Assembly (NCBI GenBank): GCA_937921865.1 | Contig: CAKZWF010000004.1 | Span: 1 to 64,000, forward strand | DNA from: an uncultured Pseudomonadales bacterium | GTDB lineage: Bacteria; Pseudomonadota; Gammaproteobacteria; Pseudomonadales; Azotimanducaceae | Length of the DNA: 64,000 nucleotides | Direction of reading: 5' to 3' | Part shown: one piece after another, positions 1 to 11,762 of the stretch | How positions within the stretch are numbered: position 1 is the stretch's first letter | Layout: each line of letters begins with the position of its first letter | Position numbers and translations under genes: made by a program | Notes under the pieces: model-generated | What the model was told of the DNA's origin: nothing | Databases searched by the model: none | Seen by the model: only the letters and a program-made list of their open reading frames with translations

Positions 1-819
1 AGCGTCGACAATCAAATTCTCACCACCCCAAATGTGAATGTGCTATATACGGCAGCTGCAGTGGACACCACGGGGGGCTTCACCCTTAACCTCCCCGTTG
101 ACGACACTCGCTTAATTACTGCGCAGATCATCAACTTGGACACCCATACAACACCGGTCCATCTCAACAAGGGTGGTGTGTACAATTTCCCGGCGGGGCA
201 GTTTGATGACCACGTAGGAATCTTGGTTCGCATCGGTGTTGATGGCAAGGCGGATGCAGAGTCTCAGGTGAAGGTCATCGCCGCTGAATTGAGTGTTGAC
301 GCGGTGAATGCTAATCCAATTCCGGACTACGACTTGGAAAAACTCCTCGCCACACGGACAGCAATGAAAAACGAATTCTCAAAAACGCCGATCGATAGCG
401 TCGGTGGAATGGTTGAAACGGTTGATCAGATCAAAGACTGGGAGAAGTACACTCTGATCGCTGCGGGCGGATGGGGTCTGAGTGGACCGGAGCGAGCTGC
501 ATACAAGCTTATCCCCGGACCTGAAGCCCTTGATTGCAGCACGGTGACGTTTGATGCCCCGCCGGTAAACACCGAGGCAAATGGTTTTTACAGCCTCACG
601 ATCTACGGTAAGGACATGTTCCTAATGACGGACGAAAACAACACCTTCAAAAGTGATAGTTCAGGCCGCATTGAGGTCACGGTTGGGTTAGCTGAATGTG
701 CGGAAGGTGCCGCCCCTTATCTCCAGGCAACTAAGCCCTGGAACATAGTGTTGAGGGCGTACGAACCTGATGCGGAGGCGTTCATGGCGCAAGATGACGG
801 AACTGTCACCGCAAAGTGA
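1..819 (+). CDS. DUF1254/DUF1214-like protein, 5' truncated by window edge
   Basis: Frame is open from base 1 (SVDNQILTTPNVNVLYTAAAVDTTGG...). The N-terminal part resembles the DUF1254 'pN.dtlYs.a..D' motif and the C-terminal 'PWNIVLRAYEPD' resembles DUF1214. Confidence 0.7.
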   Translation, partial: SVDNQILTTPNVNVLYTAAAVDTTGGFTLNLPVDDTRLITAQIINLDTHTTPVHLNKGGVYNFPAGQFDDHVGILVRIGVDGKADAESQVKVIAAELSVDAVNANPIPDYDLEKLLATRTAMKNEFSKTPIDSVGGMVETVDQIKDWEKYTLIAAGGWGLSGPERAAYKLIPGPEALDCSTVTFDAPPVNTEANGFYSLTIYGKDMFLMTDENNTFKSDSSGRIEVTVGLAECAEGAAPYLQATKPWNIVLRAYEPDAEAFMAQDDGTVTAK

Positions 820-828
820 TGTAACAAT

Positions 829-932
829 GCCCATAACAAGACCTTGAAACGGACAAATTACAGCTGGCCGTGTTCGCTTCGCTCTCGATTTTAGGCAGCT
901 ACAATTTGCCGCTTAAGGTGGCGTTATAGGGC
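829..932 (+). mobile_element. attC-like integron recombination site
   Basis: R''-like GCCCATAAC (829-837) and R'-like GCGTTATAGGGC (921-932) are near-complementary. L''-like ACCTTGAAACGG pairs with CCGCTTAAGGT with one extra G in the left arm. The inner arms CAAATTACAGCTGGCC / GGCAGCTACAATTTG also pair. It starts 10 bp after a CDS stop and ends 12 bp before the next start codon. Confidence 0.7.
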
Positions 933-944
933 TTGCACGCTTCA

Positions 945-1175
945 ATGAAACTAATCAGCGTGACAATGGCAATGGCAATGGCAATGGCAATTGCAATTGC
1001 AGTGTTGGTCGTAGCTTGCGGTCAAAGACCGGAGCCTGAAGGAAGCATGATGATTGCTGATGACCAGCAATACGCTAAACTTATTCAGGCACTTGATGAC
1101 AAGCAGATTAAGTTTTACGAAGCGGGCAGTAATCAGCCCTATAACCAGTTGGGGCAGCTGCTCGTTACCGGCTGA
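945..1175 (+). CDS. small putative lipoprotein
   Basis: MKLISVTMAMAMAMAIAIAVLVVACGQ: signal peptide with a lipobox-like VVAC; ATG at 945. The hydrophobic core is encoded by hexamer repeats. Confidence 0.55.
   Translation: MKLISVTMAMAMAMAIAIAVLVVACGQRPEPEGSMMIADDQQYAKLIQALDDKQIKFYEAGSNQPYNQLGQLLVTG
965..1000 (+). repeat. hexanucleotide tandem repeat (AATGGC)x4 (AATTGC)x2
   Basis: Direct read: aatggcaatggcaatggcaatggcaattgcaattgc. Confidence 0.95.
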
Positions 1176-1176
1176 T

Positions 1177-1200
1177 GTCCGCTTCTGGCCGAAAGCGGAC
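1177..1200. repeat. 24-bp hairpin repeat, copy 1
   Basis: gtccgcttctggccgaaagcggac; 8-bp complementary arms; 21/24 identical to copy 2 at 1862-1885. Confidence 0.8.
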
Positions 1201-1341
1201 GTTTCCCCACCGAGTTAAAGTGTCTATTTCCCACTCTGAATGGAAGGTCGATTGCAATTCTCGATCGCACTAGCCAGGCTATGCGTAACAAAAGGATTGA
1301 GGCTATCGTTGAGAGGCAATCCAGACAATAGACCTATCTGC

Positions 1342-1839
1342 ATGATCCTGCTGATGGCTCCTCCAGGCTCCGGAAAAACTACACTCGGAAACGAATTGAA
1401 TCGGCAGGGTATCGCCTCATATAGCGAACTTGAACCTAAGCTAATCCAGCTTTATGGAGAGGGCGACGAATTCGCAAAACACAGAGCTACTGCGCATCTG
1501 TGGATTTGGGACTTCTATCGAAGCGAGCTTCGGGAATCTAGCTTGCCGGTAATCATGGAGACTACGGGAATCGCCGGGCGTGACTTCATAAACGAAGTAG
1601 GCAGCCAACATAATATGCTCTTCGTTAAGCTTGATACACCGAGAGAGGTCTGCTTGGCGCGTCTTCGAGTTCGACCCAGAGGTCGCAATATAAATGAAGG
1701 CACCGAAGAATCTTCTGGCGAGTTTTACGATAATTGGCATGCAAATGTGGCGCCTACCTACGACTTTGGCTTGACTGTGAGCGGCACAAATATAGTGGCA
1801 GACGTATGTTTGATTCGTAAAAAAATTTCTACAAGCTGA
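1342..1839 (+). CDS. small P-loop nucleotide kinase-like ATP-binding protein
   Basis: Walker A motif APPGSGKTTLGNEL near the N-terminus; likely start at Met 1342 (ORF extends upstream to 1240). Confidence 0.65.
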   Translation: MILLMAPPGSGKTTLGNELNRQGIASYSELEPKLIQLYGEGDEFAKHRATAHLWIWDFYRSELRESSLPVIMETTGIAGRDFINEVGSQHNMLFVKLDTPREVCLARLRVRPRGRNINEGTEESSGEFYDNWHANVAPTYDFGLTVSGTNIVADVCLIRKKISTS

Positions 1840-1861
1840 GTTTGATTGGATGACGCAAAGC

Positions 1862-1885
1862 GACCGCTTGTGGCCGATAGCGGAC
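1862..1885. repeat. 24-bp hairpin repeat, copy 2
   Basis: gaccgcttgtggccgatagcggac; 21/24 identical to copy 1. Confidence 0.8.
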
Positions 1886-2272
1886 CTTCCCGAGATTCTG
1901 AATAGAGTCTGATTCAGAAGACTGTTAGTACCCTTCCCGTTTTTCTAAATCTGGGACGGAGGTGTATCTACTGACATTCAAAGGAACCGGGACTCCTGGC
2001 CGTCTTGGTAGGGGGGGTGTTCCCGAAGGGACCCAAACCTCTGCAGGCAGAGCCAAACTGCTGGTATCTCCCAACAGTCCCGCCACTTACTCCTCGCACC
2101 GAGGATTCCGGGCAAGTGTCGCAGGAGCATGGTGCTGGATTGGACGGAGTGGGGATGTAGGAAATTGACCAGGGAGGCAGTCGGAATGGGTTAATGTGTG
2201 TGAATGCTGCGAAGATTGGTAAGTGCATGCAGTATCTTTGTGGGCAAAGATGTTGGGAAGGAGAAGCGTATT

Positions 2273-2301
2273 AAAAAATAACCAATTAAAACAATTAGTT
2301 A
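2273..2301 (-). terminator. intrinsic terminator of selC
   Basis: On the minus strand: ATAACTAATTGTTTTAATTGGTTAT stem-loop followed by a T run, just after the selC 3' end. Confidence 0.6.
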
Positions 2302-2311
2302 TCTTCATGAC

Positions 2312-2404
2312 TGGCGGAAGAGGTAGGAGTCGAACCCACCAGGCACGTCATCGCACCTCAACGGCTTTGAAGGCCGCGCGACCCACCGGGGCCGATGCTC
2401 TTCC
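2312..2404 (-). tRNA. selC: tRNA-Sec (anticodon TCA)
   Basis: Reverse complement GGAAGAGCATCGGCC...GCGGCCTTCAAAGCCG...GGTTCGACTCCTACCTCTTCCGCCA: long variable arm, TCA anticodon, 7-bp GGAAGAG/CTCTTCC acceptor, CCA end. selA and selB are nearby. Confidence 0.93.
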
Positions 2405-2581
2405 GTGACCGAGTGTAGCGAATTAGTCGGCCGTTGTGGTGCTCAATGAAGTCAAAAATCGCGCTCGAACTCAGCTTTAGTGGACGCTGCTGGAAAAACT
2501 TTAGATCAAAGCCACTTTTTCATTCAGCCGCTGGAGCTTACCCAAGCTGATACCATTCTGTGACGTTCCGAAGGTCTGGGG

Positions 2582-3868
2582 TTGACGGTGACAGATGCTG
2601 CACCGGTGACGGTTGAAGATCGAATTGAATCGCTGGATGTGATTCGCGGTTTTGCTCTGCTGGGTATTCTGCTGCTTAACATTCTCGGTTTCGGGCTGAT
2701 TTCGTCCGGCTATTTCAATCCTGAGGTTGCGGGCGGTTCAACGCCGTTTGAGATGGAACTGAATCTGGCGGTCTGGGCTGGTGTCGACGTCTTCTTTGAA
2801 GGCGCAATGCGCTGTCTGTTCTCGCTGCTGTTTGGTGCAGGCGTGGTGTTGTTTACCAGCAGTGCCCGCGAGCGTGGCGGTGTCCTGCACTATCGGCGTA
2901 ATTTCTGGCTGCTGGGGTTCGGGCTGTTCGATGCCTATATTCTGTTGTGGTCAGGTGACGTTCTGGTGACCTATGCGTTGGCAGGCATGGTGTTGTATCC
3001 GTTGCGTAACCTGTCTCCACGCAAACTCACCGCCTGGGCTACCGCGCTCATTATCCTGATGAGCCTGATGAACCTTGCTTTCTCTTTAAGCCTTGGTCAG
3101 GCCCGTCAGGTCATCGTTGCGTCAAATGCTGCTGAGATTACCGATCCCACTTCTCGAGAGCTCGCGATTGCCTGGGAGGACTTTGAGGCTGATTACACGC
3201 AGAGTCCTGAAGTGGTTGAAACGGAGCTGACGATGCGGCGCAGCAGCTACGCCAGCGCCTTTATTTACAACAGCGAATACATGACGGAAGTGCTCACCTT
3301 CGTTATTCCGGTGCTGCTGTTCTGGGATGCGCTGGCGATGATGCTGCTGGGCATGGCGCTGTTCAAGTGGCGCATCCTGGATGCGTCGAGAACTTCCGGT
3401 TTCTATCTGAAGCTGATGCTGATTGGATTCGGGGTGGGTCTGTTCACCAATCTGTATGAACTCATTCTGGTCTATGCCAGTGACTTTGACCCACTGCGGG
3501 TGCACGGCTACATGCGGCCGACCTATCACGTTGGCCGTCTGGCGATGGCGCTGGGTTATCTGGGTCTGGTAATGCTTATCTGCCGGGAAGGGTGGCTGGT
3601 CGGAATGCGCGCCAGGCTGGCGGCCGTCGGCCGGATGGCGTTGACGAACTATCTGATGCACTCGCTGATCTGCCTGTTTATCTTCACCGGGGCAGGACTG
3701 GCGCTGGTTGGAGAACTGCAGCGCTGGCAGCTCTATCCGATTGTTCTCGCTATCTGGATCTTTCAGCTGGCGCTTAGCCCCTGGTGGCTGACGCACTATC
3801 GATTTGGGCCTGTTGAATGGCTGTGGCGTGCACTCACCTATGGCAAGTTGCCGCAGATGAAGCGCTGA
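2582..3868 (+). CDS. DUF418 (YeiB-like) integral membrane protein
   Basis: RIESLDVIRGFALLGILLLNI N-terminus, many hydrophobic segments, C-terminal GPVEWLWRALTYGKLP typical of DUF418. Confidence 0.85.
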   Translation: MTVTDAAPVTVEDRIESLDVIRGFALLGILLLNILGFGLISSGYFNPEVAGGSTPFEMELNLAVWAGVDVFFEGAMRCLFSLLFGAGVVLFTSSARERGGVLHYRRNFWLLGFGLFDAYILLWSGDVLVTYALAGMVLYPLRNLSPRKLTAWATALIILMSLMNLAFSLSLGQARQVIVASNAAEITDPTSRELAIAWEDFEADYTQSPEVVETELTMRRSSYASAFIYNSEYMTEVLTFVIPVLLFWDALAMMLLGMALFKWRILDASRTSGFYLKLMLIGFGVGLFTNLYELILVYASDFDPLRVHGYMRPTYHVGRLAMALGYLGLVMLICREGWLVGMRARLAAVGRMALTNYLMHSLICLFIFTGAGLALVGELQRWQLYPIVLAIWIFQLALSPWWLTHYRFGPVEWLWRALTYGKLPQMKR

Positions 3869-3874
3869 GCGTGG

Positions 3875-5737
3875 CTAACCCAAGTTCAACCGGCTGAGTT
3901 CGCCGCCGATGCTTCGGGTATCGCCGTTGCGTCTGGTAAAACCCCGACTGTCGAAGTATTCCAGTACTTCAATGGCAACATTGCGCCCGATGCCTGATGC
4001 ATCTCGATACTCGCGCACGGTGAAAGGGCCGGCTGTTCCCAGTTTCATCGCCAGTTCAGCCAGCGGCTTCACCCTGGCGGGCAGGTAGTAGCGGCTGTCG
4101 CTGATTTTGACCAGCTGCTTCTTTACGACCAATGGCAACAGACCCTTGGCCAGTTGTGGAATCGGCTGCCGCAGCAGCTTGGCCAGGTCGCCAAGACTGG
4201 GCGGTTGCGCCTGATCGAGGTGTCTGGTGACTTTGGTCAGCAGGGTTCGTTCCGCGTCACTCAAATCGACCTGGTGGCTGGCAGGCAGGTAGCGTCCTGT
4301 CCTGTTTTCGAGCTGCCGGTTGCTGACCAGTTGGAGCAGTGCTGCAGGCAGCAGCGATTCTGGAATGACGCCAGTCAGATCACTCTGCTTGAGACCCTGA
4401 AGTGAAGGGTCGTTGCGGTGACGCTCGGAGATATTGTCCGTGAGGGTCTTAAGGTGGTTTATCCAGTCCTGCTCAGACACCGCAAACGACTCGATCTTAC
4501 GACACCCGTTATTCTCCAGAAGCCTGTTCAGCGACTTGTCATCGACACGCCAGACCTCCGTGAAGCGCTGCAGATCAACCTCGCCCAGTTCGAGGTGGCG
4601 GGTAAAAGCCTCTTCTGCGGTTGCAGCCTGATCCGCTTTCAAACGCAGCAGGCGCTGCGATGAGCGACGCCGTCCAGCGATGGACTGTGGTGCGAGCACC
4701 GCACCGCCTCCAAGGGTTCGATCCAGCCCCTGATCGCGGATGACCAGTCGATCCCCTCGAGCGACCAGCAGAGGTTCGTTGGTAATGATCTCAACTGCAG
4801 CAATACTGCCGGGAGCCATTCGGCCTTCCTGGAGCAGGGCAATGTGTCCGGTGCTGTGGCTGCTGGCGTGATAAACGTGCACGGGTAACCAGTGGCGAAC
4901 CGGTCGGGGGAAGTCGTCCAGCACCTGCAGATCGAGGGTGAACTGCTGGCTGCCGGTACTGTTCAGGCTCGTCAGCCATTGACCTCGTTTGACCGAATCG
5001 ATGTCTATGCCGGCAATGTTGATCGCGCAACGCTCACCTGCAGCGGCTGTGTCGACCGCTTTGTTCTGCGCACGCAGGCCTCGAACCCGGACTTCGCTGT
5101 TGTGTGGAAACAGCCGCAGTGATTCATCAATACGGACTGTTCCGGACTGAACGGTTCCCGTGACGACTACACCGGCGCCGGTAACCGTGAAGGCTCGGTC
5201 AATGGCGAGCCGGAAAGGTTCATCTGGGCCACTGTTTTTTTCCGCCTGGGCACCCACTAAAAGCTCACGCAGTTGCTCGAGTCCCTCACCTGTCTCTACT
5301 GAAGTGGTAATTGTCTGGGCGTTGTTGAGAAAGCTGTTGGCGGTTAGTTGCTGGATTTCCTGCCGTGCGGCGACGAGCCGTTCTGCGCTGACCCGGTCAG
5401 CTTTAGTGAGTGCAATCACACCCCCGCTTAAACCCAGCAACTCGAGAATCTGCAGATGCTCGCGGCTCTGTGGCATGGGTCCGTCGTCTGCGGCAATCAC
5501 CAGCAGCGCAAACTGTCGGCTGGCAACACCTGCGACCATGTTGTGAATGAACTTGTGGTGGCCGGGGACATCAACGAATCCCAGCGTACCCTGTGGTGTT
5601 TCCAGGTAGGCGAAACCCAGATCGATGGTCAGCCCGCGACGTTTCTCTTCTGCCAGGCGGTCTGTCTCGACACCGGTCAGCGCCCGCACTAGGCTGGTCT
5701 TACCATGATCGACATGGCCGGCGAGGGTAATGATCAT
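3875..5737 (-). CDS. selB: selenocysteine-specific translation elongation factor SelB
   Basis: MIITLAGHVDHGKTSLVRALTG GTPase plus C-terminal winged-helix repeats; ATGA overlap with the upstream selA stop. Confidence 0.93.
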   Translation of the reverse strand: MIITLAGHVDHGKTSLVRALTGVETDRLAEEKRRGLTIDLGFAYLETPQGTLGFVDVPGHHKFIHNMVAGVASRQFALLVIAADDGPMPQSREHLQILELLGLSGGVIALTKADRVSAERLVAARQEIQQLTANSFLNNAQTITTSVETGEGLEQLRELLVGAQAEKNSGPDEPFRLAIDRAFTVTGAGVVVTGTVQSGTVRIDESLRLFPHNSEVRVRGLRAQNKAVDTAAAGERCAINIAGIDIDSVKRGQWLTSLNSTGSQQFTLDLQVLDDFPRPVRHWLPVHVYHASSHSTGHIALLQEGRMAPGSIAAVEIITNEPLLVARGDRLVIRDQGLDRTLGGGAVLAPQSIAGRRRSSQRLLRLKADQAATAEEAFTRHLELGEVDLQRFTEVWRVDDKSLNRLLENNGCRKIESFAVSEQDWINHLKTLTDNISERHRNDPSLQGLKQSDLTGVIPESLLPAALLQLVSNRQLENRTGRYLPASHQVDLSDAERTLLTKVTRHLDQAQPPSLGDLAKLLRQPIPQLAKGLLPLVVKKQLVKISDSRYYLPARVKPLAELAMKLGTAGPFTVREYRDASGIGRNVAIEVLEYFDSRGFTRRNGDTRSIGGELSRLNLG

Positions 5738-9617: not shown

Positions 9618-9979
9618 AGAATGTTACGAGTTTGTCTCGAAGCGGGTTGTCGGACTTTGTCCTGCAGCGGGCAAGCGCGGCCATCATGGCCCTTTATACG
9701 CTCTGCGTACTCGGCTTCTTCCTGGCTAACCCGGAGTTGACCCATGCCGAGCTGGTGGGCTATTTCGGCTCTGCTCCGATGCTGGCGTTCAGCACCCTGC
9801 TGGTACTGGCGACAGCGGCTCATGCCTGGATCGGCATGTGGACGGTCGGTACCGACTATATTCAGGCGCACTATTTCGGCGCCCATGCCACCAGCTTCCG
9901 GCTGCTCTATCAGGCCGGGTGTGTGGCGGTGATTTTCCTGTACGTCGTCTGGGCGTTGCAGTTGTTCTGGTCTCTTTGA
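9611..9979 (+). CDS. sdhD: succinate dehydrogenase membrane anchor subunit
   Basis: Small three-helix membrane protein between sdhC and sdhA ([17 protein letters not shown]). Confidence 0.92.
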
Positions 9980-9989
9980 AGGTACTCCT

Positions 9990-11762
9990 ATGAGCGGTAT
10001 TCGCAGGATTGATTTTGACGGCGTGATCATCGGTGGCGGTGGATCCGGCATGCGTGCTTCGTTGCAGTTGGCGCAGTCGGGGCTGAAAACAGCGGTCATT
10101 ACCAAGGTGTTTCCAACCCGTTCGCATACGGTTTCAGCTCAGGGTGGAATTACCTGTGCAATTGCCAGTGACGACCCTAATGACGACTGGCGCTGGCACA
10201 TGTACGACACCGTCAAGGGGTCGGACTACATAGGCGATCAGGACGCGATCGAATACATGTGCAGTGAAGGTCCTCAGGCTGTGTTCGAACTTGAGCACAT
10301 GGGTTTGCCGTTTTCGCGGACTGAGTCCGGGCGGATTTATCAGCGACCTTTTGGTGGTCAATCCAAAGACTTTGGTAAAGGTGGTCAGGCAGCGCGAACG
10401 TGTGCCGCCGCCGACCGAACCGGCCACACCCTGTTGCATACTCTTTATCAGGCCAACCTGCGGGCCAACACCACCTTTTTAAACGAGTGGTTTGCGGTCG
10501 ACCTGGTGACCAATCAGGACGGCGGTGTCGTCGGCGTGATTGCCATCGAAATCGAAACCGGCGAGATGGTCTATATCAATTCCAAAGCCACCGTTCTTGC
10601 CACCGGTGGGGCCGGGCGGATCTATGCCAGCACCACCAATGCGCACATGTGTACGGGTGATGGCGCTGGTATGGCGCTGCGGGCGGGATTCCCGCTCCAG
10701 GACATGGAGATGTGGCAGTTTCATCCCACCGGTATTCACGGTGCCGGCACGCTGGTGACCGAGGGCTGTCGAGGTGAAGGCGGCTATCTGATTAATAAAG
10801 ATGGCGAGCGCTTCATGGAACGTTATGCGCCAACCGCGAAGGATCTGGCCGGGCGGGATGTGGTGGCGCGGTCGATGGTCATCGAGATCCTTGAGGGTCG
10901 CGGCGCCGGTCCGGAAGGCGATCACGTTTTTCTCAAGCTCGATCATCTTGGTGAGGACGTTTTGAACAGCCGGCTGCCGGGCATTCTGGAACTGTCTCGC
11001 ACATTCGCTCACGTCGACCCGGTAAAAGAGCCGATCCCCGTTGTGCCGACCTGCCACTACATGATGGGTGGAACCCCGACTGGTGTGAACGGGCAGGCGC
11101 TGACTCAGGATGCCGCCGGTAATGATCAGGCTGTCGATGGACTCTACGCTGCCGGCGAAGCAGCCTGTGTGTCGGTCCATGGCGCCAATCGTCTGGGTGG
11201 TAATTCACTGTTGGATCTGGTGGTATTCGGCCGGGCGGCCGGCATGCACATTGAAGAAGTGCTGCGTCAGGGCGTGAGTCACCGCGCGGCCAGCGAATCT
11301 GACCTGGAACGGGCGACCGCGCGTCTGGCTCGCTGGAATGAGTCCACCTCGGGCGAGTCTGTGGCGGCACTCAAGAAAGAATTGCAGACAGTGATGCAAA
11401 ACAGTTTCGGCGTATTCCGGACAGAAACCCATATGGAAGAGGGCACCAAGAAGCTGGTAGATCTTCGCGAGCGTATTGGTCAGGCTCACCTGAGCGATAA
11501 AAGTGCGGTATTCAACACCGCCCGGATGGAAGCGCTGGAGCTCGATAACCTGCTGGAAGTTGCTGAAGCCACAGCCATCTCTGCGCTTACCCGTACAGAA
11601 AGTCGCGGCGCGCATGCCCGCGATGACTATCAGGTTCGGGACGATGAGAACTGGCTGTGTCACAGCATCTATTCCCCGATCAGCAGACAGACGACCAAGC
11701 GGGAGGTGAATTTTTCACCCAAGACCGTGCCGACATTTGAACCCCAAGAACGCGTTTACTAG
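9990..11762 (+). CDS. sdhA: succinate dehydrogenase flavoprotein subunit
   Basis: FAD-binding N-terminus, [31 protein letters not shown]. Confidence 0.97.

Follow-up and report, generated by a model that had tools for sequence, protein, structure and literature searches.

The window analyzed here spans the first 64 kb of C4, a contig of 110,478 bp, and its first base is also the first base of the contig. The contig belongs to a host assembly (G000) of 4.27 Mb in 103 contigs that is an estimated 89.7% complete, with about one tenth of the genome missing. Close to the contig start, an imperfect inverted repeat of about 104 bp separates an ORF that is open at the contig edge from two further ORFs on the same strand. 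The features that we assigned to this region are as follows.

1 to 819, + strand: putative cassette gene, a DUF1254/DUF1214-type ORF of 272 amino acids with its 5' end off the contig (weak Pfam matches and homologs)
829 to 932, + strand: predicted attC including outer flanks (covariance model R1, match at 831 to 929, 51.7 bits, E = 2.2e-10)
831 to 837, + strand: R'' box, CCATAAC (R1 alignment)
838 to 840, + strand: unpaired spacer of the left side, AAG (R1 alignment and fold)
841 to 852, + strand: L'' arm, ACCTT-G-AAACGG, with extrahelical G846 (R1 alignment; bulge in the bottom-strand fold)
853, + strand: A853, the second of the extrahelical bases and a T on the bottom strand, with G846 at a distance of 7 nt (bulge in the bottom-strand fold; spacing of 6 to 8 nt according to PMC2727003)
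854 to 908, + strand: variable terminal structure (R1 alignment; a Pseudoalteromonas attC has similar arms)
909 to 919, + strand: L' arm, CCGCTTAAGGT (R1 alignment)
920 to 922, + strand: unpaired spacer of the right side, GGC (R1 alignment and fold)
923 to 929, + strand: R' box, GTTATAG, with the predicted crossover G923^T924 (R1 alignment; crossover placed according to known attC biology, PMC2727003)
945 to 1175, + strand: lipoprotein-like ORF of 76 amino acids, either a next cassette without a recognizable attC or native flank
1240 to 1839, + strand: accessory ORF for a P-loop kinase, AAA_18-like (Pfam AAA_18 match below the curated cut-off, E = 1.7e-5)

The repeat starts 9 nt after the stop codon of the upstream ORF (TGA, 817 to 819) and ends 12 nt before the next ATG, at 945. 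As the first-pass annotation had described, it carries GCCCATAAC at one end (829 to 837) and GCGTTATAGGGC at the other (921 to 932), and its inner arms pair. The terminal R'' and R' boxes (...AAC and GTT...) are able to pair, and an unpaired central spacer (AAG and GGC) sets them off from the L'' and L' arms, the former of which divides into ACCTT (841 to 845), G846, and AAACGG (847 to 852). The annotation had also reported a one-base asymmetry in the left inner arm. The asymmetry is present but the count was low, since there are two such bases, G846 and A853, which lie on the R''-L'' arm at a distance within the 6 to 8 nt expected of extrahelical bases. One extra base is found in the outermost flank at the right end, and A849 opposes C912 as a mismatch on the top strand, whereas on the bottom strand, the substrate of IntI, the two positions form a T-G wobble.

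To score the site, we used a covariance model (R1) made from 26 aligned attC sites of relatives, with the window site left out and the R-spacer-L structure imposed. Training sites came from a self-comparison of the DNA beside the relatives' integron integrases, where regular repeats of about 100 bp recur every 400 to 1000 bp and read as attC in one orientation. The imposed structure was supported by the alignment: 88% of cells were paired versus 69% in shuffles, and the covariation score was 0.461, compared with 0.139 for shuffles and no more than 0.10 for slid versions of the structure. R1 matched positions 831 to 929 on the plus strand with E-values of 2.2e-10 for the window and 1.5e-8 for the genome, with boxes and spacers in register. 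By our own model, then, the R''/L''/L'/R' architecture that had been proposed from reading the sequence receives a significant covariance match. No second R1 match was found in the window at E ≤ 10, and the next-best match in the first 12 kb, searched with filters off, reached only 10.9 bits. In a scan that scored a limited number of first-look candidates, the window site was the only strong match in the 4.27-Mb assembly and had no companion on contig C4. As a false-positive control, we searched the starts and ends of contigs, retrieved separately and amounting to 1.91 Mb (a set without the right ends of long contigs from C29 on and without contig C103), in which matches at E ≤ 1 occurred only in a cassette cluster on contig C11. 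Given this restriction and a score of 51.7 bits, the window site lies far beyond chance. A pattern search of the genome for the R' end returned 12 matches at ≤1 mismatch, fewer than the reversed control and hence uninformative, and pattern scans of viral contigs together with a phage search did not find the window-type attC.

The annotation had suggested folding the bottom strand, and the result was a canonical attC hairpin, with the R boxes paired, a spacer of 3 unpaired nt, the L arms, and on the correct arm two extrahelical bases, which are the extruded complements of G846 and A853. The bottom strand folded at −22 kcal/mol (shuffle mean, −13.2; z = −3.1; 3 of 200 shuffles as good). With the site folded alone, the bottom strand formed one long hairpin and the top strand a more broken one. 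Mobile-integron attC sites and Vibrio VCRs share with the window site the R boxes, the unpaired spacer, and two extrahelical bases 6 to 8 nt apart on the R''-L'' arm; the conserved bases are the extrahelical G of L'', a T 6 to 8 nt further, and a G after the AAC of the bottom R' box (PMC2727003). The window site agrees in the distance of 7, in the T, and in the G after AAC, but at the first extrahelical position its bottom strand has C where G is conserved. In the VCR, a C at this position costs less than a 3-fold loss of activity (PMC2727003). With this spacing, second base, G after AAC, and tolerated C, the predicted site has the structure that attC activity requires, and it may still be active.

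The ORF that ends at 819 is the single ORF immediately upstream of the site in attC orientation, as expected of the gene in a cassette. Its Pfam matches to DUF1214 (E = 1.8e-4) and DUF1254 (E = 0.003) both fall slightly under the curated cut-offs. It is 74% identical to a chromosomal protein of Vibrio breoganii and 76% identical to a protein from a Colwellia MAG. The Vibrio homolog has 334 amino acids, so that about 62 N-terminal codons of the window gene are off the contig; as far as is visible, the window does begin inside a cassette, as previously claimed. Annotated DUF1254 relatives borne on plasmids showed ≤34% identity, and 196 related genomes contained no close relative (best, 28% identity). 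Neither the Vibrio nor the Colwellia homolog has a recognizable flanking attC, and the gene is therefore not generally a cassette gene. The Colwellia homolog (L069, 605 to 640) ends in TAAATAACAGAACGTGTTATATAG, which resembles the R'' and R' boxes with the interior deleted; at 9 bits, this may be chance.

Beyond the site, a tRNA-Sec gene (2313 to 2405) lies about 1.4 kb from the attC, with its 3' end toward the intervening ORFs, and adjoins DUF418, selB, and selA. In a same-genus genome (G003), the DUF418 neighbor sits in another context with no tRNA-Sec nearby. No relative of the kinase ORF turned up in 146 related genomes, and GC content is 48.2% from 924 to 1840; the cassette ORF has 52.7% and the remainder of the window 56.4%. 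For these reasons, the interval between 924 and the tRNA-Sec gene looks accessory. A palindromic repeat, GTCCGCTTCTGGCCGAAAGCGGAC, occurs at 1177 to 1200 and again at 1862 to 1885, shortly 3' of each of the two accessory ORFs. It has 10 copies in the genome at ≤2 mismatches, versus 0 for the reversed control, and three of them lie near the left end of contig C27; these palindromes may be terminators or REP-like elements.

We compared the window site with other attC sites. The closest in the plasmid collection, with 71% identity over the whole site, was an attC on plasmid pPBSW1 of Pseudoalteromonas sp. Bsw20308 (NZ_CP013139.1; L095, 3981 to 4081), which lies between small ORFs and heads a row that two more attC hits, at 4676 and 6450 of the locus, continue. 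The plasmid and window sites have in common the R-spacer-L layout and, in the terminal structure, the stem ACAAATnACAGnTGGC / GCnAnCTACAATTTGCC; they differ in the first extrahelical base (C on the plasmid and G in the window, top strand), the L arms, and the neighboring genes. Sites of the same-genus genome G003 (contig C45, L036) resemble the window site in the AAG left spacer, in the GAA(G/A)CGGAC and CCGCTT boxes in register, and in the place of the first extrahelical G. However, their mean identity to it is about 59%, and their array adjoins intI, whereas no intI is visible beside the window site.

Taken together, the repeat at 829 to 932 is very probably the attC belonging to an integron cassette that has the DUF1254/DUF1214-type ORF as its gene, and at the level of sequence the identification of the attC is secure. 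Counting against the cassette reading, searches of the assembly recovered no intI and no second attC of the window type; the Vibrio and Colwellia homologs, which lack a recognizable attC beside them, weigh in the same direction, as does the lack of an attC after either following ORF. The ORF is foreign to the clade and the attC is closest to that of Pseudoalteromonas, and the cassette was therefore most likely acquired horizontally, from a marine donor pool.

Two arrangements of the cassette have to be weighed. In the first, the site would close a multi-cassette array, and this chromosomal integron would have its intI and remaining cassettes, unassembled, to the left of the contig end. An array tail had been proposed in the first-pass annotation; the reading is plausible, and we consider the chances about even. 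The contig breaks inside the cassette, and near-identical attC sites of arrays often cause assembly fragmentation (PMC9024848). The cassette orientation places intI to the left of base 1, where the assembly holds no sequence, including the 10 to 20 kb in which the annotation had suggested looking; the missing tenth of the host genome leaves room for such an array. Integrons with intI are common in the host's family and genus: taking a match over the TIGR02249 cut-off as an integron integrase, we found one in 53 of the 147 genomes searched, including the same-genus G003 and G004, and two contigs of G003 carry about 18 attC hits in all. Against an array, no TIGR02249 match over the cut-off was present in the 90%-complete host assembly, which has other tyrosine recombinases only, on contigs C72 and C8. 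An intI gene or an attC-only cluster had been named as support, and neither was recovered: the window and contig C4 contain a single attC, and no cluster of the window type was found in the assembly. An attC without intI recalls a CALIN (in IntegronFinder terms, a cluster of attC sites lacking integrase), but the CALINs that IntegronFinder 2 reports have at least two sites (PMC9024848). Within the 1.91 Mb of contig starts and ends, there was no overlap with the first 20 to 141 bases of C4, no missing DUF1254 N terminus, and no window-type attC, and neither of the two following ORFs is followed by an attC. Moreover, sedentary arrays usually hold similar attC sites (PMC8352920), and the window attC is unlike the genus's own type (best about 63% identity in G003 and 56% on C11).

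In G003 (L036, 1 to 5839) and G004 (L037, 1 to 1247), intI is found at a common location, next to genes for an amidase and a phosphodiesterase-like protein, and in G003 seven similar attC sites adjoin it. This shared place is that of an inherited chromosomal integron. The best host homolog of the amidase (57%) lies where a contig begins, and its readable side shows no intI.

The host has a second cassette cluster, on contig C11 (L066, which is G000:C11:18501-38500), at 9960 to 11718. It comprises at least four decayed attC-like sites (9960 to 10056, 10402 to 10530, 11123 to 11175, and 11622 to 11718) of a type that differs from the window attC. They lie between small ORFs on the same strand (YCII-like and NUDIX-like by reading), with no intI seen, and the cluster possibly runs on to about 19700. 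Within it, L066 10397 to 10503 forms a palindrome that is 97% perfect. Its outer arms are identical, each being of the right-hand L'-R' type seen in same-genus attC sites, and its extrahelical bases and spacer asymmetry are lost. It looks as if an attC had been symmetrized by hairpin-templated repair, and it should recombine poorly, to judge from PMC2727003.

The other arrangement is a single cassette at a secondary site near the tRNA-Sec gene, with no array, placed there by an IntI from elsewhere or carried on a tRNA-Sec island. We regard this as a real possibility that stops short of an even chance. It would fit a lone strong attC in the assembly, an attC type and a gene that are both foreign, and an accessory region on the 3' side of the tRNA-Sec gene with an ORF absent in relatives. 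Genes for tRNA-Sec are known targets of islands, and the one here is a possible insertion point. Yet no island integrase was seen, no direct repeat of the tRNA-Sec end was found within 1 to 3000, and the left end is out of view. The narrower statement, that a lone foreign cassette with an Alteromonadales-type attC sits at a secondary site beside the tRNA-Sec gene in a host genome with neither an integrase of its own nor an array, is only tentative and on balance doubtful. A chance or unrelated hairpin mimicking attC, be it a terminator, REP element, or RNA, is very improbable: other palindromes do follow nearby ORFs, but boxes, spacer lengths, and extrahelical bases all fall in register here, the control sequence held no other match at E ≤ 1 save the C11 cluster, and Rfam searches of the whole window, and permissively of 700 to 2450, returned no integron-related family and no match at the site.

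Under the cassette reading, the attC would act as single-stranded DNA, its bottom strand folding into the hairpin. The integron integrase (IntI) would bind the R and L boxes, with the extrahelical bases choosing the strand, and would recombine at G923^T924, so that the cassette becomes linked to an attI or a further attC. Entry into the lineage would have been horizontal, most likely from marine bacteria of Alteromonadales or Vibrionales type. At the contig end, the cassette would now be either an isolated one or the final attC-bearing member of an array that is mostly unassembled. The junction made by IntI, the continued activity of the site, the donor, and any further cassettes to the left are the conjectural parts of this scheme.

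The site is of an ordinary, well-known kind, and the understanding of integrons is unchanged by it. It adds one well-supported cassette, with a gene of DUF1254 type, to the known cases of cassette exchange between marine gammaproteobacteria; for this cassette, both the type of attC and the gene content indicate a donor from outside the host clade.
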